This document shows, piece after piece, positions 36,040 to 52,652 of a stretch of 64,000 nt of DNA. The position numbers and the translations under genes were made by a program. The notes under the pieces were generated by a model, which saw only the letters and a program-made list of their open reading frames with translations, was not told where the DNA came from and searched no databases. The stretch is from positions 682,001 to 746,000 of the forward strand of contig NZ_LWTX01000001.1 in the NCBI RefSeq assembly GCF_002094305.1. Reading direction: 5' to 3'. Position 1 is the first letter of the stretch; every line of letters begins with the position of its first letter. Source of the DNA: Prescottella equi (GTDB lineage Bacteria; Actinomycetota; Actinomycetes; Mycobacteriales; Mycobacteriaceae).

Positions 36040-38007
36040 TCAGGACGGCCCGTGAGCGGGCTGGAAGGTGCCGGTGTCGCCGGCCTCCTCCGCTCGGATG
36101 ACGTGCACGACCGCATTGATCAGCGCCAGGTGGGTGAAAGCCTGCGGAAAATTGCCGAGGTGCCGGCCGGTCTTGGGGTCGATCTCCTCGGCGTACAGCT
36201 TGAGTGGGCTGGCGAACCCGAGCAGACGTTCGCACAGCTGCTTGGCGCGCTCGAGTTCCCCGATCTCCACCAGGGCCGAGACGAGCCAGAACGAGCAGAT
36301 CGTGAAAGTGCCCTCCTTGCCGGACAGTCCGTCGTCGGTCTCCTCGACTCGGTAGCGCAGCACCAGTCCGTCCTCGGTGAGTTCGTCGGCGATCGCCAGC
36401 ACGGTGGCCCGGATGCGCTCGTCGTAGGCGGGCAGGAAGCGCAGCAGGGGAGCGAGCAGCAACGACGCATCGAGAGCCGGACTGCCGTACCGCTGGGTGA
36501 GCACCCCACGATCGTCGACACCGTGGGCGAGGACGTCGGCTCGGATCTCGTCCGCGATGTCGGCCCACTGTGCCGCATAAGCCTTCTCGCCGTGCAACGT
36601 CGCCAGCTTGGCGCCGCGGTCGAGCGCGACCCAGCACATGATCTTCGACGACGTGAAGTGCTGGGGTTCGCCGCGAACCTCCCAGATGCCGCGGTCGGGC
36701 CGGCGCCAGTTCTCGACGACCTCCTCGACCTGACGTTTGAGGAGCGGCCACAGGGTCTCGGGGACCTGGTCGCGGGAACGGACGTGCAGGTACACCGAGT
36801 CGAGCATCGTGCCCCAGATGTCGTGCTGGTTCTGGTTGTAGGCGCCGTTGCCGATCCGGACCGGCCGGGCCCCGTCGTAACCCTTGAGGTGGCTCAGTTC
36901 CTGCTCGACGAGCGTGTGCTCGCCGCCGACGCCGTACATCACCTGCAGGGGTGCCGGGTCGCCGTCGTCGGACTGGGACGAGTCGAAGATGAACGAGAAG
37001 AAGTCGTTGGCCTCCCGATCGAGCCCGAGCGTGTAGAGACCCCACAGCGCGAAGGTCGAGTCGCGCACCCAGGCGTACCGGTAGTCCCAGTTCCGTTCGC
37101 CGCCGGGCGTTTCGGGCAGGGACGTGGTGGGGGCGGCGAGCAGGGCGCCGGTGGGGGCGTAGGTGAGGCCCTTGAGGGTCAGCGCACTGCGCTGCAGGTG
37201 GCCACGCCACGGATGGTCGGGGAACCGGCCGATCGTCACCCACTGCCGCCAGCACTCGGTGGTCTGCCACATCCGGTCCGCCGCCTCGGCGAAGGTACGC
37301 GGGGCCGGCAGATCGGACCAGGAAAGGGCGACGAAGGCGTTGTCGCCCTCCACCATTCGCGTCCGGGCACGGGCCTCGCGCCCCTCGAGACCGAGCCGGA
37401 GATTCGACGTCAGGCGCAGTGTCGGGTGGTCGGCGGAGGACGCGCGCGACGTCGCCGTGGCTTCCTCGTACACCTTGCCGGTATATTCCCACCGGGCCGG
37501 GGCGCGGTGGTAGTCGAAGGCGGGTTCGCAGCTCATCTCCAACTCGACGGTGCCGCTGACGCACTTCACCGTCCGCAGCAGCACGTGCTCGGCATCCCAG
37601 TCCGACGGCGTGCGCCGACGCGTCGGCGAACGCTGCTCGTTCGCGTGCCAGGGTCCCATCACGAGGGCGTCCCGGACGATGAGCCACCCGGTCTGCGTCT
37701 GCCACGTCGTCTCCAGGATGAGCCCGCCCGGCAGGTAGCGGCGCGCGGCCGGCACGTTCTGGCCGTACGGCCCTATCCGGAAGTGCCCGGCGCTGCGGTC
37801 CAGGATGGACCCGAACACGCTGGGCGAGTCGGGTCGCGGGATGCACATCCACTCGACGGAGCCGTTCCGGGCGATCAGGCAGTTCGACTCGCAATCGGAG
37901 AGGAATGCGTAGTCGTCGATCGGCGGATAGACGCTGCGGTGCTCCGGCGCGATCTCGTCCGAATCGCCCGACGGTCCGGTGACTGACTGCTCGGCCTGCG
38001 ACGTCAT
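36040..38007 (-). CDS. Glycoside hydrolase family 15 protein, probable trehalase
   Basis: 655 residues. The N-terminal beta-sandwich domain (DYAFLSDCESNCLIARNGSVEWMCIPRPDSPSVF in two blocks) is followed by the (alpha/alpha)6 barrel of GH15. Catalytic Glu candidates lie in GIWEVRGEPQHFTSSK and YAEEIDPKTGRHLGNFPQAF, and YRYAWVRDSTFALWGL is typical. In mycobacteria the GH15 enzyme at this position next to lepA and subI is a trehalase, so trehalose hydrolysis to glucose is the likely reaction. It is divergent from the sulfate-import locus with a 107-base gap to the first leader ORF. Confidence 0.88.
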   Translation of the reverse strand: MTSQAEQSVTGPSGDSDEIAPEHRSVYPPIDDYAFLSDCESNCLIARNGSVEWMCIPRPDSPSVFGSILDRSAGHFRIGPYGQNVPAARRYLPGGLILETTWQTQTGWLIVRDALVMGPWHANEQRSPTRRRTPSDWDAEHVLLRTVKCVSGTVELEMSCEPAFDYHRAPARWEYTGKVYEEATATSRASSADHPTLRLTSNLRLGLEGREARARTRMVEGDNAFVALSWSDLPAPRTFAEAADRMWQTTECWRQWVTIGRFPDHPWRGHLQRSALTLKGLTYAPTGALLAAPTTSLPETPGGERNWDYRYAWVRDSTFALWGLYTLGLDREANDFFSFIFDSSQSDDGDPAPLQVMYGVGGEHTLVEQELSHLKGYDGARPVRIGNGAYNQNQHDIWGTMLDSVYLHVRSRDQVPETLWPLLKRQVEEVVENWRRPDRGIWEVRGEPQHFTSSKIMCWVALDRGAKLATLHGEKAYAAQWADIADEIRADVLAHGVDDRGVLTQRYGSPALDASLLLAPLLRFLPAYDERIRATVLAIADELTEDGLVLRYRVEETDDGLSGKEGTFTICSFWLVSALVEIGELERAKQLCERLLGFASPLKLYAEEIDPKTGRHLGNFPQAFTHLALINAVVHVIRAEEAGDTGTFQPAHGPS

Positions 38008-38101
38008 CTCCTCATCATCGACCCGCGCGCACGCCGCCGTCCATGTTTCGACCGCGCCGCGCGGGGGAGCGGTGCGGCTCGCCGCGACTGCGGGTGTCTG
38101 T

Positions 38102-38107
38102 TACTCT
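38102..38107 (+). promoter_or_regulatory. -10 box of the subI-1 leader ORF
   Basis: TACTCT ends 7 bases before GTG 38115. No Shine-Dalgarno lies between the two, so the leader ORF is predicted to be translated from a leaderless mRNA. Confidence 0.6.
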
Positions 38108-38114
38108 CTGCGGC

Positions 38115-38204
38115 GTGTCTGCTGCCATCGCCCACCGCGTCCGCCATGAACTGGCGTTGATTGCCGTCGGCGATCTGGCGGTTGCCGACATTCTTTGTCG
38201 CTGA
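38115..38204 (+). CDS. Leaderless 29-residue leader peptide with terminal Cys, upstream of subI-1
   Basis: GTG 38115 to TGA 38202-38204 encodes 29 residues. The core VRHELALIAVGDLAVAD is nearly identical to the second leader ORF at 39932, and the peptide ends ILCR (TGT CGC then stop). The start lies 7 bases after a TACTCT box. In mycobacteria, leaderless short ORFs with cysteine codons have been reported to act as cysteine-responsive attenuators of sulfur genes. Here ribosome stalling at the Cys codon when cysteinyl-tRNA is scarce would alter folding of the hairpin at the stop codon and allow read-through into subI. That mechanism is inferred. Confidence 0.75.
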   Translation: MSAAIAHRVRHELALIAVGDLAVADILCR

Positions 38205-38220
38205 CGCCCTTTCCGGGCGT
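38204..38220 (+). promoter_or_regulatory. Attenuator-like hairpin at the end of leader ORF 1
   Basis: ACGCCC (38204-38209) pairs with GGGCGT (38215-38220) around TTTCC, directly at the leader stop codon, and is followed by TCGTCTTCC. A second 8-bp hairpin, GGTCCGGC-gtgt-GCCGGACC, lies at 38355-38374 before the subI-1 ribosome-binding site. Confidence 0.5.
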
Positions 38221-38427
38221 TCGTCTTCCGTCGAATCCGGCCCGCGGCCGCGCGCTTCGCTCTTCTTCGTCGGTGGACCGGCCGGGGCGTGCTGCGCGCC
38301 CGGTTCGTCACGAACGCCCTTCCAATGCAGGACATCCGTCCGATCTCTGAGTACGGTCCGGCGTGTGCCGGACCGATTCCGTACGTCATCACCATCATCC
38401 GTGAGCCTGGTAGGAAGGCAATCCCTC

Positions 38428-39456
38428 ATGAGGCATCGTTCCCGTTCGTTCCTGACCGCACTCGTCGCGCTCGGCGCGGTCGCGCTGTCCGCGTGCAGCG
38501 GCGGTTCCAGTGACGTCGTCGGCGGCACCGAGACCGCCGACGGCAGCGGCGGCACGATCAACCTGTTCGCGTATGCGGTGCCCAAGCCCGGATTCGACAA
38601 GGTCACCGCGGCCTTCGCGGAGACCGAGGATGGCAAGGGGGTCCGGTTCAATCCGTCGTACGGTGCCTCGGGCGACCAGTCCCGCAAGGTCAAGGACGGC
38701 GCGCAGGCCGACTTCGTGAACTTCTCCGTCGAACCCGACATCACCCGACTGGTGGACGCCGGCCTTGTCGACGAGAACTGGAACAAGGACGCCTACAACG
38801 GAATTCCGTTCGGGTCGGTCGTCACGATCGTCGTCCGCGAGGGCAATCCGAAGAACATCCAGGACTGGGACGATCTGCTGCGTCCGGGTATCGAGGTGGT
38901 CACCCCCAACCCGTTCAGTTCCGGTTCGGCGAAGTGGAACCTGTTGGCGCCGTATGCCGCGAAGAGCGAGGGCGGCCGGAACCCGCAGGCGGGACTTGAC
39001 TACCTCGGCAAGCTCGTGAGCGAGCACGTGAAGGTGCAGCCCAAGTCGGGACGCGAGGCCACGGAGACGTTCCTGCAGGGCACCGGTGACGTGCTGCTGA
39101 GCTACGAGAACGAGGCGCTGTTCACCGAGCGCAACGGCGACCCGGTGGAGCACGTCACTCCGCCCGCGACGTTCAAGATCGAAAATCCGGCCGCGGTCAT
39201 CTCCAACAGCCCCAACGCGGCCCAGGCGACCGCGTTCCGCGACTACCTCTACACCGCCGACGCCCAGCGACTGTGGGCGGAGGCGGGTTTCCGTCCCGTC
39301 GACCCGGCCGTGGCGCAGGAGTTCGCGGCCGACTTCCCGCAGCCGCAGAAGCTGTGGACCATCGCCGACCTCGGGGGCTGGAAGACCGTCGATGCCGAGT
39401 TGTTCAAGCAGGGGACCGGCAGCATCGCGGTGATCTACGAGAACGCGACCAAGTAG
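38428..39456 (+). CDS. subI: Sulfate ABC transporter substrate-binding lipoprotein, copy 1
   Basis: 342 residues from ATG 38428 (AGGAAGG upstream). A lipoprotein signal with lipobox LSAC (ALVALGAVALSACSGG) anchors it outside the membrane. The CysP/Sbp family fold is shown by FNPSYGASGDQSRKV, NPFSSGSAKWNLLAPY and LLSYENEALF. It binds sulfate or thiosulfate for the CysTWA permease. It is followed by two tiny membrane-protein genes and a second, very similar copy at 40219, so this is a tandem duplication. Confidence 0.94.
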   Translation: MRHRSRSFLTALVALGAVALSACSGGSSDVVGGTETADGSGGTINLFAYAVPKPGFDKVTAAFAETEDGKGVRFNPSYGASGDQSRKVKDGAQADFVNFSVEPDITRLVDAGLVDENWNKDAYNGIPFGSVVTIVVREGNPKNIQDWDDLLRPGIEVVTPNPFSSGSAKWNLLAPYAAKSEGGRNPQAGLDYLGKLVSEHVKVQPKSGREATETFLQGTGDVLLSYENEALFTERNGDPVEHVTPPATFKIENPAAVISNSPNAAQATAFRDYLYTADAQRLWAEAGFRPVDPAVAQEFAADFPQPQKLWTIADLGGWKTVDAELFKQGTGSIAVIYENATK

Positions 39457-39538
39457 CTCGCGCGCAGGCACGGTGAGGACACGGGACCGGACGCGGCACG
39501 CACATTGCGCCGCGTTCGGTCCGCACCTTGCCAGCCGC

Positions 39539-39544
39539 TAGGGT
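39539..39544 (+). promoter_or_regulatory. -10 box of the small membrane protein pair
   Basis: TAGGGT ends 6 bases before GTG 39551; no Shine-Dalgarno. A leaderless start is likely. Confidence 0.45.
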
Positions 39545-39550
39545 GGTCGG

Positions 39551-39775
39551 GTGGATCAACTCGCGAACTGGTGGGACGGCGCCGAACTGTGGATCGCCGG
39601 CCTGCCGTTCATTCCCCAGGTTCTCCTGGTGCTCGCGGTGATGATCCCGGCCTGCTTCGGTATCGCCTGGATGCTCGACCGCGTGTTGTCCGCGGTGTTC
39701 GCTGCAGTCGGTCGTGCCGAACCGGCCGCGTCGGATGTCTGCGCGGACGCGCGCTCGAAGGTGGAGGGTTCCTGA
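39551..39775 (+). CDS. Small membrane protein (74 residues) between the subI copies
   Basis: Starts MDQLANWWDGAELWIAGLPF, followed by one clear transmembrane helix (PQVLLVLAVMIPACFGIAWML) and a short charged tail. The GTG start is probably leaderless. The stop overlaps the start of the next tiny gene (TGATG). Mycobacteria also have small hydrophobic proteins at this spot beside subI, which supports a real gene. Function unknown; it may assist the sulfate transporter. Confidence 0.75.
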   Translation: MDQLANWWDGAELWIAGLPFIPQVLLVLAVMIPACFGIAWMLDRVLSAVFAAVGRAEPAASDVCADARSKVEGS

Positions 39776-39852
39776 TGCCGCGCTCACGCGTGACCCTGGC
39801 TCTGATCGCACTTATCGTCCTGGTCGTCATCGCCTGGTACTTCACCCGCTGA
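39775..39852 (+). CDS. Very small membrane protein (25 residues)
   Basis: ATG 39775 overlaps the preceding TGA. The peptide is MPRSRVTLALIALIVLVVIA plus WYFTR: a positively charged start, one transmembrane helix and an aromatic/basic end. GGAGGG 7 bases upstream gives a good ribosome-binding site. It is too short for ordinary gene callers but the overlap and composition suggest a translated membrane micro-protein. Function unknown. Confidence 0.65.
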   Translation: MPRSRVTLALIALIVLVVIAWYFTR

Positions 39853-39918
39853 GGCCTGCCCGACTACGGCCGTCCCGGTCACCAGAAAAGCGATTCGGAC
39901 GGCGGTTCGGCGCTCTGC

Positions 39919-39924
39919 TAAAGT
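39919..39924 (+). promoter_or_regulatory. -10 box of the subI-2 leader ORF
   Basis: TAAAGT ends exactly 7 bases before GTG 39932, as in the first leader. The spacer CTGCCGC resembles CTGCGGC in copy 1. Confidence 0.65.
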
Positions 39925-39931
39925 CTGCCGC

Positions 39932-40021
39932 GTGTCTGTAGTCGTCGCCCACCAGGTCCGCCATGAACTGGCGTTGATCGCTGTCGGCCGACTTGCAGTT
40001 GCCGACGTCGACTGTTGTTGA
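39932..40021 (+). CDS. Leaderless 29-residue leader peptide ending Cys-Cys, upstream of subI-2
   Basis: GTG 39932 to TGA 40019-40021, 29 residues. The core VRHELALIAVGRLAVAD is shared with leader ORF 1 and it ends VDCC (TGT TGT stop). A short CACC/GGTG hairpin follows the stop at 40023-40035, in the same relative place as the hairpin of copy 1. The remaining ~170 bases to subI-2 are C-rich and G-poor in stretches (for example near 40078-40150), which could favour Rho-dependent termination when the leader is fully translated. Proposed role: cysteine-responsive attenuation of subI-2-cysTWA. Confidence 0.8.
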   Translation: MSVVVAHQVRHELALIAVGRLAVADVDCC

Positions 40022-40218
40022 TCACCTCGTCGGTGTTCGCCCAGTCGTGACACTCGTGTTCGGTCCGAACGCGCAGCTCTCCCCCGAGTCACCCCGCCGC
40101 CCTGCGTGCCGCGAACGCCCCCCTGCGCCCCGATAGCTCCCGCCGCCCGACCGTCCGGTCGGTCCGCTCTGCTGCGAGCTCTTCTGCATCTGCCGGCACT
40201 GTAGGAAGGTAAGTCCCT

Positions 40219-41250
40219 ATGAACCATCGGTCCCGCCCCCTCGTGGCTGCGTTCGTCGCCGTCGCCGCGGTGGCGCTCGCCGGGTGTAGCGGCGGTTCGA
40301 GTGACGTCATGGGTGGCGGCGACGGCGGTGCCGACGGCAGTGGCGGCACGATCAACCTGTTCGCATACGGCGTCCCCAAGCCGGGCTACGACAAGGTCAC
40401 CGCGGCGTTCGCGGAGACCGACGAGGGTCAGGGCGTGCGGTTCAATCCGTCGTACGGTGCCTCGGGCGACCAGTCCCGCAAGGTCAGGGACGGCGCGCAG
40501 GCCGATCTGGTGAGCTTCTCCGTCGAGCCGGAGATCACCCGGCTCGTCGAGGCGGGTCTCGTCGACGATTCCTGGAACCAGGACGCATACGGCGGTGTCC
40601 CGTTCGGGTCGGTCGTCACTCTCGTCGTGCGGGAGGGTAATCCGAAGAACATCCGCGACTGGGACGATCTGCTGCGTCCGGGGATCGAGGTGGTCACCCC
40701 CAACCCGTTCAGTTCGGGTTCGGCGAAGTGGAACCTGTTGGCGCCGTACGCCGCCGAGAGCGAGGGCGGCCGGAACCCGCAGGCGGGACTCGACTACCTC
40801 GGCAAGCTCGTGAGCGAGCACGTGAAGGTGCAGCCCAAGTCGGGACGCGAGGCGACCGAGATGTTCCTGCAGGGCACCGGTGACGTGCTGCTCAGCTACG
40901 AGAACGAGGCGCTGTTCACCGAGCGTAAGGGCGATCCGGTGGAGCACGTCACGCCCGCTGTGACGTTCAAGGTGGAGAACCCGGTTGCCGTCGTCTCCAC
41001 GGGCCGCAACGCGTCCACCGCCGTCACGTTCCGTGAGTTCCTCTACACCCCTGCAGCGCAACGTCAGTGGGCACAGGCCGGGTTCCGTCCCGTCGACCAG
41101 GCCGTGCTGGCCGAGTTCGCCGCGGACTTCCCGGAGCCGCAGAAGCTGTGGACCATCGCCGACCTCGGTGGTTGGGACGCCGTCGACCAGGATCTGTTCG
41201 AGCAGGACTCGGGACGGATCGCCGCAATCTACGAGAACGCGACCAAGTGA
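40219..41250 (+). CDS. subI: Sulfate ABC transporter substrate-binding lipoprotein, copy 2
   Basis: 343 residues from ATG 40219, with AGGAAGG upstream as in copy 1. Signal peptide with lipobox LAGC. The mature protein is closely similar to copy 1 along its length, with identical blocks such as NPFSSGSAKWNLLAPYAA and LGKLVSEHVKVQPKSGREAT; the central DNA is nearly identical too. The stop overlaps the cysT start, so this copy is the operon's own binding protein. Confidence 0.95.
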   Translation: MNHRSRPLVAAFVAVAAVALAGCSGGSSDVMGGGDGGADGSGGTINLFAYGVPKPGYDKVTAAFAETDEGQGVRFNPSYGASGDQSRKVRDGAQADLVSFSVEPEITRLVEAGLVDDSWNQDAYGGVPFGSVVTLVVREGNPKNIRDWDDLLRPGIEVVTPNPFSSGSAKWNLLAPYAAESEGGRNPQAGLDYLGKLVSEHVKVQPKSGREATEMFLQGTGDVLLSYENEALFTERKGDPVEHVTPAVTFKVENPVAVVSTGRNASTAVTFREFLYTPAAQRQWAQAGFRPVDQAVLAEFAADFPEPQKLWTIADLGGWDAVDQDLFEQDSGRIAAIYENATK

Positions 41251-42131
41251 TGACGACCGTGACGACTCAGCCGGCCCGACAGCCGGCGCAGACACCCTCA
41301 CCGAAACCGAAGACCCGCTCGCGGCGCAGGTTTGCCGTCACCGGTGCCGTCGGGCCGCTCGGCATCGGTATCGCCGGCCTCTGGCTCAGCGTCATCGTGC
41401 TCCTTCCGTTGGCGGCGCTGACGGTCACGTCGTTCGAGAACGGCTGGGCCGGCTTCTGGGACGCGGTCACCGCTCCCGGCGCGCTGGCGGCGCTGCGGGT
41501 GACGGTGGTGGTCTCCGCGATCGTCGCCGTGATCAACGTCGTGATGGGCACTGCCATTGCCTGGGTGCTGGTGCGCGACGAGTTTCCCGGCAAGCGGATC
41601 GTGGGCGCACTCATCGATCTCCCGTTCGCGCTGCCGACGATCGTCGCGAGCATCGTGCTGCTCTCGCTCTACGGGCCGCAGAGCCCCGTCGGTATCCACC
41701 TCAACGCCACGCAGCCGGGTCTGATCGTCGCGCTGGCCTTCGTGACGCTGCCGTTCGTCGTGCGCTCGGTACAGCCGGTGCTGATCGAGGCCGACCGAGA
41801 GGTCGAGGAGGCGGCCGCGTCGTTGGGTGCGAACAACTGGACCATCTTCCGCTCGGTGGTGCTGCCGACGCTGGCGCCGGCGGTCATCAGCGGTGCCGGG
41901 CTGGCGTTCGCCCGGGCGATCGGCGAGTACGGCTCCGTCGTCCTGATCGGCGGCAACATTCCCCGCGAGACGCAGGTGGCGTCGCAGTACATCCAACAGC
42001 AGATCGAGATCGACCGTCCGGTCAGCGCCGCGGCCGTGTCGGTGGCACTGTTGGCGATCGCGTTCGTCACGCTGTTCGTCCTGCGCCTGTTCGCGGCCCG
42101 TAACCAGCGCCGAGAGGAGCACGCCCAGTGA
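41250..42131 (+). CDS. cysT: Sulfate ABC transporter permease CysT
   Basis: 293 residues from ATG 41250 (overlapping the subI stop as TGATG). Six transmembrane helices and the inner-membrane permease EAA loop (EVEEAAASLGANNWTIFRSV). A Pro/Lys-rich N-terminal ~30 residues precede helix 1. It pairs with CysW to form the sulfate/thiosulfate channel. The stop overlaps cysW. Confidence 0.95.
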   Translation: MTTVTTQPARQPAQTPSPKPKTRSRRRFAVTGAVGPLGIGIAGLWLSVIVLLPLAALTVTSFENGWAGFWDAVTAPGALAALRVTVVVSAIVAVINVVMGTAIAWVLVRDEFPGKRIVGALIDLPFALPTIVASIVLLSLYGPQSPVGIHLNATQPGLIVALAFVTLPFVVRSVQPVLIEADREVEEAAASLGANNWTIFRSVVLPTLAPAVISGAGLAFARAIGEYGSVVLIGGNIPRETQVASQYIQQQIEIDRPVSAAAVSVALLAIAFVTLFVLRLFAARNQRREEHAQ

Positions 42132-52562: not shown

Positions 52563-52652
52563 CTACACGCCGCAGGACAGACAACAACAGCTACAGACAC
52601 GCTTGAGGTCGACGTGGCGCCGCGCCACCAATCGCACCCCGGTATCTGTCAT
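52563..52652 (-). CDS. Leaderless 29-residue polycysteine leader peptide upstream of sirA
   Basis: ATG 52652 to TAG 52563-52565, 29 residues. It begins MTDTGVRLVARRHVDLKR and ends VCSCCCLSCGV, five Cys codons in the last ten. On the reverse strand CAGAAT (52665-52660) lies exactly 7 bases before the ATG, so the ORF is probably leaderless. Comparable polycysteine short ORFs precede sulfur assimilation genes in mycobacteria and respond to cysteine. This is the clearest of the leader ORFs in the window and likely controls sirA-cysH-cysD-cysN-sirB. Confidence 0.85.
   Translation of the reverse strand: MTDTGVRLVARRHVDLKRVCSCCCLSCGV

Follow-up and report, generated by a model that had tools for sequence, protein, structure and literature searches.

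Cysteine leader peptides of the Ms4533A family upstream of tandem subI genes, and a possible dual constraint on RNA stem and peptide tail

The stretch analyzed here (the window; 64,000 nucleotides of Prescottella equi contig NZ_LWTX01000001.1, positions 682,001 to 746,000, forward strand) contains two short open reading frames (ORFs), each of which precedes one of two tandem subI genes for a sulfate-binding protein. Both ORFs encode leader peptides of an already named family, NCBIfam NF042937 (Ms4533A family Cys-rich leader peptide), rather than constituting a new system. Comparison with relatives suggests that the conservation of the leader core can be traced to two constraints: the R-H/L-A codons form an RNA stem, and a tail, V-A-D-x-x-C, is maintained as peptide. 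Each ORF probably acts as the leader in attenuation of sulfate uptake in response to cysteine, in the manner of Ms4533A; the attenuator is likely leaderless, and the nascent peptide possibly contributes to it.

Identity and distribution of the leader ORFs

Leader ORF 1 (38115–38204) encodes VSAAIAHRVRHELALIAVGDLAVADILCR and leader ORF 2 (39932–40021) encodes VSVVVAHQVRHELALIAVGRLAVADVDCC, each followed by a stop codon. Both start with GTG and are 29 codons in length, and each is preceded by a −10-like box, TACTCT (38102–38107) or TAAAGT (39919–39924), located 7 nt 5′ of the GTG. These features had been given in a preliminary description of this DNA and are confirmed from the sequence. The two peptides have in common the core VRHELALIAVG-x-LAVAD, which is followed by the tail ILCR in leader 1 and VDCC in leader 2. 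Both had been described as ending in Cys, which holds for leader 2 (DCC), while leader 1 ends in Cys-Arg. That these are paralogous sulfur leaders, one per subI gene and conserved beyond their Cys codons, is supported. The NF042937 profile scores leader 1 at 50 bits and leader 2 at 42.8 bits (cut-off 31). The genes that follow are sulfate-binding protein genes, as had been proposed, with TIGR00971 (sulfate-binding protein) scores of 168.5 bits for copy 1 and 153.8 bits for copy 2, the latter slightly under the cut-off of 155.5. A six-frame search of the same genome with NF042937 yielded only these two sites above cut-off (43.7 and 38.2 bits). Exactly these two ORFs were also returned by a scan of the window for 26–33 codons, TANNNT 6–7 nt upstream, and a Cys codon at the last or next-to-last position, criteria that were fixed only after the leaders had been seen; the same scan of 60 Markov sequences gave a mean of 0.07 and a maximum of 2, and none with exactly 29 codons. 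No Rfam family was found above its gathering score in the window.

A third leader of 29 codons, that of sirA, is located at 52563–52652 of the window on the minus strand (MTDTGVRLVARRHVDLKRVCSCCCLSCGV) and is present in 14/14 genomes of the genus. It is assigned to NF042936 (Ms4527A; 45.4 bits, cut-off 45), a named family other than that of the two subI leaders. The earlier idea that a length of 29 codons marks a defined system of three leaders finds no support in this assignment or in the lengths of 118 related leaders (see below), 86 of which have 29 codons and 30 of which have 30–33 (19 with 30, 3 with 31, 1 with 32, and 7 with 33). The other two have 28 and 21 codons; these, along with one scored as 29, reach the end of their locus, and the 28- and 21-codon leaders are cut short. 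Elsewhere in the same genome, a low-scoring match to the sirA leader (G000:C12:63190-63258, 19.7 bits) may be another Cys leader.

Among 301 genomes of the taxonomic family, an NF042937-type match reaches E ≤ 0.001 in 165 and exceeds the cut-off in 151, and such leaders are present in 20 of the 31 genera searched. DNA encoding HELALIAVG occurs at no fewer than 119 loci in named genomes, mostly Nocardia and Rhodococcus-like among the 80 titles listed. These loci gave 124 pattern matches, of which 118 short leaders were kept and 6 in long non-leader frames were dropped. Together with 28 copies from further relatives, some of the same species, they form a set of 146 leaders, all with the exact HELALIAVG core. 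A GTG (143) or ATG (3) start with TANNNT 6–7 nt upstream is found in 146/146, the starts having been selected by the TANNNT box itself, and at 4/4000 random points of the window. The subI gene is downstream in 136 of the 146; for the remaining 10, the downstream sequence covered is no longer than 344 nt.

The profile supplied a second set, for which 40 regions were hand-picked for genus spread among the matches listed. The motif RH.L.L missed 11 of 51 profile-drawn loci, ten belonging to one genus and one (G023) having a match that looks spurious; G048, which is under the cut-off, was left out of this test. All 40 RH-type leaders have subI downstream. Alignment A3 consists of 47 of the 51 loci along with the two window copies, and its requirement for TGT near the end lost no locus. 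In one genome of another genus (G062), two such leaders (L245 and L246) are located on different contigs, each with its own subI.

An RNA stem within the leader ORF

The codons R-H-E-L-A of the core have the form CGCCA-YGARY-TGGCG, in which CGCCA and TGGCG make up a stem, H1 (38142–38146 and 38152–38156 in leader 1). Changes were counted on a SubI tree of 98 of the 118 leaders, those with enough SubI sequence; this set was selected by peptide and is uninformative on the HELALIAVG amino acids, while its synonymous sites are unconstrained by the selection. In 98/98 of these leaders, Arg is CGC, the third base of Leu is G, and Ala is GCG, with 0 changes on the tree at the synonymous sites of the stem (Arg3, Leu3, and Ala3). 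As a control, the corresponding medians for conserved SubI codons on the same tree are 26 changes for Arg, 12 for Leu, and 22 for Ala, and none of the 5 Arg, 9 Leu, and 11 Ala control codons shows zero changes. The synonymous sites of the H1 loop (His3, Glu3, and Leu1) change 6, 12, and 18 times.

The stem also recurs in the profile-drawn leaders. It is exact in 39 of the 40 RH.L.L leaders, the exception being TGGTG, which is paired via G-U, and the loop position in these 40 is occupied by E, Q, R, C, T, or I. In another genus, probably mycobacterial, from which ten genomes were used, 6/10 leaders have GGCCA/TGGCC, one has CGCCA/TGGCG, and three have one mismatched pair. Over 44 distinct sequences, these ten genomes included, 98.6% of cells are paired in the inner five pairs of H1, and pair 7–21 is C-G in 36, has G-C instead in 6, and is open in the remaining 2. 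The paired share, changed cells, and covariation score of H1 were matched by 0/500 shuffles. A longer H1 of eight contiguous pairs has 71.9% of cells paired and was rejected; the claim is therefore limited to the inner five pairs. Two divergent leaders of the RHTLALFAVDYRCVFDALCR type (L052 and L055) have an extra mid-peptide Cys, yet retain the CGCCA/TGGCG stem and a VxDxxC tail.

Conservation of the peptide tail and its Cys codon

Located 3′ of the stem is a conserved tail, V-A-D-[IV]-x-C. On the 98-leader tree, the third positions of the V, A, and D codons change 15, 23, and 12 times, and the first and second positions 1, 0, and 0 times. In the 47 profile-drawn leaders, V is kept in 47/47, A in 44/47, and D in 47/47 with mixed third bases, and the variants VSD and VFD account for 3/47. 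A second hairpin, H2 (GTCGG/CCGAC, leader columns 52–56/71–75), was considered for the same bases and rejected, as one of its pairs is broken in 5/22 rows and many Nocardia-type rows have GCG there. Because H2 is not kept, V-A-D is not explained by the RNA pairing found here.

The Cys codon of the tail is TGT in 117/117 named leaders that reach the codon and in 47/47 profile-drawn leaders; in 15 genes of the window, TGC is used 41 times and TGT 6 times. A single Cys is present in the tail of 85/118 named leaders, two of the 118 being cut short, and of 20/47 profile-drawn leaders. The preliminary description had allowed for two explanations of the core, a recent duplication or a function of the peptide. 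This overlooked a third, the RNA hairpin in the ORF, and was in part correct in that the peptide tail also looks selected.

Helices between leader and gene

In alignments, a strand located 3′ of the leader stop (D) pairs with a strand farther downstream (E). Across 66 Nocardia-type loci, 90.8% of D:E cells are paired, and two-sided changes occur in 5/7 pairs (0/500 shuffles). Across 22 loci of the genus, from which three loci with a short spacer were excluded, 91.4% are paired, with two-sided changes in 3/9 pairs (18/500 shuffles) and a covariation score reached by 5/500. The D:E helix thus appears to covary moderately. A hairpin (T) is located 5′ of the Shine-Dalgarno site, with 80.4% paired in the genus alignment. 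In the predicted fold of copy 1 (z −2.48), H1 and T are formed along with the complete set of nine D:E pairs. The features of the locus, all on the plus strand, are as follows.

38102–38107, −10-like box TACTCT of leader 1 (sequence; spacing rule in relatives)
38115–38204, leader ORF 1, 29 codons, ending in -DILCR, NF042937 (profile)
38140–38156, H1 region TCCGCCATGAACTGGCG in leader 1
38196–38198, sole Cys codon, TGT, of the leader 1 tail
38215–38223, helix strand D, 3′ of the leader 1 stop (alignment; paired with E in the predicted fold)
38311–38319, helix strand E, partner of D, copy 1 (alignment; predicted fold)
38355–38374, hairpin T GGTCCGGCGTGTGCCGGACC, without a T-run (alignment, predicted fold; no terminator call)
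38412–38418, Shine-Dalgarno AGGAAGG of subI copy 1 (sequence)
38428–39456, subI copy 1, sulfate-binding lipoprotein (profile; lipoprotein judged by eye from the N-terminus)
39919–39924, −10-like box TAAAGT of leader 2 (sequence)
39932–40021, leader ORF 2, 29 codons, ending in -DVDCC, NF042937 (profile)
39957–39973, H1 region in leader 2 (alignment, predicted fold)
40031–40039, helix strand D, copy 2 (alignment; without pairing to E in the predicted copy 2 fold)
40112–40119, helix strand E, copy 2 (alignment)
40147–40162, hairpin T, copy 2 (alignment, predicted fold)
40203–40209, Shine-Dalgarno AGGAAGG of subI copy 2 (sequence)
40219–41250, subI copy 2, with cysT and putative cysW and cysA next in order (SubI and CysT by profile; cysW and cysA from ORF order)

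The short-spacer loci L038, L042, and L043 (copy 1 of G001, G005, and G006) keep the leader and H1, and a hairpin is visible by eye in at least two of them. In Nocardia-type loci, the sequence 3′ of the leader stop (alignment A2, columns 131–144) is a conserved GTAGACTGGCGYGC; a second promoter for subI is possible there, because TAGACT resembles a −10 box.

Duplication of the leader and subI

Two leader copies are present in 11/14 genomes of the genus and one copy in three. The window and seven relatives have the order GH15-like gene, leader-subI, spacer DNA, leader-subI, and cysT. In G002, G003, and G009 the order is GH15, spacer, leader-subI, leader-subI, and cysT, and in the three single-copy genomes it is GH15, spacer, leader-subI, and cysT. 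In the SubI phylogeny, a single clade (support 1.0) unites the second copies from the eight genomes with the first order, and both copies of the group with the second order cluster with those of the single-copy genomes G004 and G011 (support 0.93). The two SubI copies within one genome are 79–87% identical in protein sequence. The duplication is thus old, and a recent event in a single strain, which had been raised earlier, is not supported in view of the two-copy state of most genomes of the genus, the divergence of the SubI copies, and the two gene orders. Because the gene orders differ, the leader and gene appear to have been duplicated as a unit on two or more occasions, or on one occasion with a later relocation. 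Repeated duplication of leader and gene provides natural replicates.

Between subI copy 1 and leader 2 (39551–39852) are two small ORFs of 74 and 25 amino acids, with an ATGA overlap and hydrophobic stretches as judged by eye. DNA markers from this interval were detected in 13/13 other genomes of the genus, with one of the two markers absent in G004 and G011.

Proposed mechanism and alternatives

In the mechanism that we propose, transcription probably begins at the GTG, as judged from promoter spacing, so that the ribosome would start directly at the mRNA 5′ terminus and translate the 29 codons. When Cys-tRNA is scarce, the ribosome would slow or stall at the UGU near the end of the leader. 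The stall may shift pairing among the conserved strands, H1 within the ORF and D:E beyond the stop, and the altered pairing would lead to more sulfate-binding protein and higher sulfur uptake. One conceivable alternative state would pair E with the TGGCG of the leader. The leader was apparently copied along with its gene at least twice in the genus, and each subI copy would for this reason retain its own control. Comparison among relatives (ORF conservation, frozen stem sites, covariation, and amino-acid-level constraint on the tail) argues for this proposal, in which we infer the start site, the pause, the switching, and the direction of control. Homologous mycobacterial loci are reported to respond to cysteine: cysteine genes of M. 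smegmatis are under translation attenuation, by the account in PMC13236596, which cites Canestrari et al. (2020). Six cysteine-rich ORFs are predicted to regulate in response to cysteine according to PMC9094748, and such upstream ORFs had been proposed in 2015 in PMC4633059.

Several observations weigh against such an attenuator. Just one H1 pair varies two-sidedly, a count attained by 338/500 shuffles, and the six G-C rows may be one event. An H1 register slid by +2 has the same covariation score (0.105 as compared with 0.100), but pairs 41% of cells. Slid D:E registers likewise reach three two-sided pairs in the genus rows (at −2), yet pair 30–53% of cells. On the tree, D:E in its present register has 4 two-sided, 16 one-sided, and 17 pair-breaking events, a count that covers 60 of the 66 Nocardia-type rows and in which the breaks include the helix end and lineages with a seemingly shifted helix. 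For copy 2, folding does not surpass that of shuffled sequences (z −0.07), and its predicted fold has H1 and T, but D is not paired with E; the leader tail instead takes up four of the nine D bases, and the partners of E lie elsewhere. D and E are absent from the three genus loci that have 70–84 nt between leader and gene. The one Cys codon of copy 1 is a weak signal for plain codon starvation, and amino-acid conservation is partly built in by the method of finding leaders.

Three specific routes from stall to gene expression also found no support. Modelling a stall at Cys did not raise accessibility of the Shine-Dalgarno site (p = 0.10, 0.49, and 1 for 66, 25, and 30 loci) in an equilibrium model that blocks the bases under a ribosome at UGU and ignores co-transcriptional folding; freeing of this site by a Cys stall is not supported by this model. 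No anti-Shine-Dalgarno peak was found directly 3′ of the leader stop among the 121 of 146 leaders that are distinct and have an assignable subI start, and such an element beside the stop was rejected. The excess complementarity to the Shine-Dalgarno region is largest at −40, inside the leader, and weaker at +36 to +44. Lastly, no conserved intrinsic terminator was found between leader and gene. One terminator-like site occurs in 38000–41300, inside the leader, versus 1.9 expected, and a classical terminator-based transcription attenuator was rejected with no terminator beyond chance.

The tail may bear on the sensor itself. Arrest could be assisted by the nascent peptide, with V-A-D-[IV]-x in the exit tunnel aiding a stall at the single UGU, such that peptide and codon together, in place of a Cys run, would be the sensor. 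The retention of V, A, and D over varying third positions, the frequency of a single tail Cys, and the invariance of TGT against a preference for TGC in the window genes are as this would predict, but these residues are also part of the profile by which the 47 leaders were selected, and VSD and VFD variants exist. We regard peptide-assisted arrest as possible, with the odds against it. A further, similarly tentative idea is that Ms4533A leaders are dual-coded sensors, in which the R-H/L-A RNA stem is combined with a V-A-D-x-x peptide that would make one UGU a cysteine sensor, with D:E as the switch.

The conserved DNA could instead be mainly the site of a transcription factor for sulfur genes that falls within a short ORF by chance. 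The frozen inverted repeat CGCCA-n5-TGGCG is what such a site would look like. However, variation in the loop obeys codon rules and the tail is constrained at the amino-acid level, which RNA and peptide fit better, and the C-G to G-C swap points the same way, though a symmetric DNA site would permit it too. We consider a DNA site improbable. Least probable is that the conservation is a functionless relic of recent duplication or gene conversion. The core is indeed common to the copies within one genome, but the spread of the family over 165/301 genomes and 20/31 genera has already largely refuted a relic; the presence of subI downstream of all RH-type profile-drawn leaders and the frozen leader sites as compared to varying SubI sites also speak against it. 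A cysteine-responsive attenuator remains our preferred explanation.

Relationship to known systems

The two leaders resemble the NF042937 Ms4533A family in their above-cut-off profile match, Cys near the C-terminus, and position upstream of subI. They differ in the presence of two copies per locus and in copy 1, where Arg follows the only Cys codon. The Ms4527A family of the sirA leader is alike in its 29 codons, Cys-rich character, and pathway, and has its own features, the core RRHVDL and several Cys codons. In mycobacteria, polycysteine-encoding leaderless short ORFs that confer cysteine attenuation were reportedly described by Canestrari et al. in 2020. The leaders here share with these ORFs a leaderless-type promoter spacing, terminal Cys codons, and downstream cysteine or sulfate genes, but have one or two Cys codons, and we infer their cysteine response from homologues. 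Because copy 1 lacks a run of Cys codons, having a single one, and copy 2 has the shortest possible run of two, the pair is filed under NF042937 alone and not as proven polycysteine attenuators. In TnaC-type arrest peptides, the nascent leader helps the ribosome to stall, and conserved residues are located near one key codon. The leaders here are likewise short with conserved residues near one key codon, while ligand and arrest are features of TnaC that would extend to them only by analogy.

A 2005 survey of actinobacterial cys leaders (PMC1262725) gave their mode of regulation as unknown, with other attenuator elements missing. Like the leaders here, those peptides are encoded by short Cys-codon ORFs, ahead of mycobacterial cys operons; here, in comparison with that account, loci of the Nocardia and Rhodococcus types have predicted non-terminator helices, and H1 extends to another genus. 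Among the top-ranked titles of a literature search there was no description of H1 or D:E, although one may exist; no paper for Ms4533A by name was returned. The leaders are known already, though their duplicated arrangement is unusual, and what appears to be new is the dual constraint of RNA stem and peptide tail, along with the covarying helix. If the dual-coded sensor is correct, H1, D:E, and the tail would be attenuator elements of the kind missing in 2005. Candidate RNA parts can be offered for a family whose mechanism was open in that account: a stem within the ORF with a compensatory swap and a covarying helix after the stop, together with a UGU that never varies and a peptide tail under constraint. 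These parts raise the question of whether one cysteine codon and a nascent peptide can substitute for the polycysteine run of the mycobacterial leaders.

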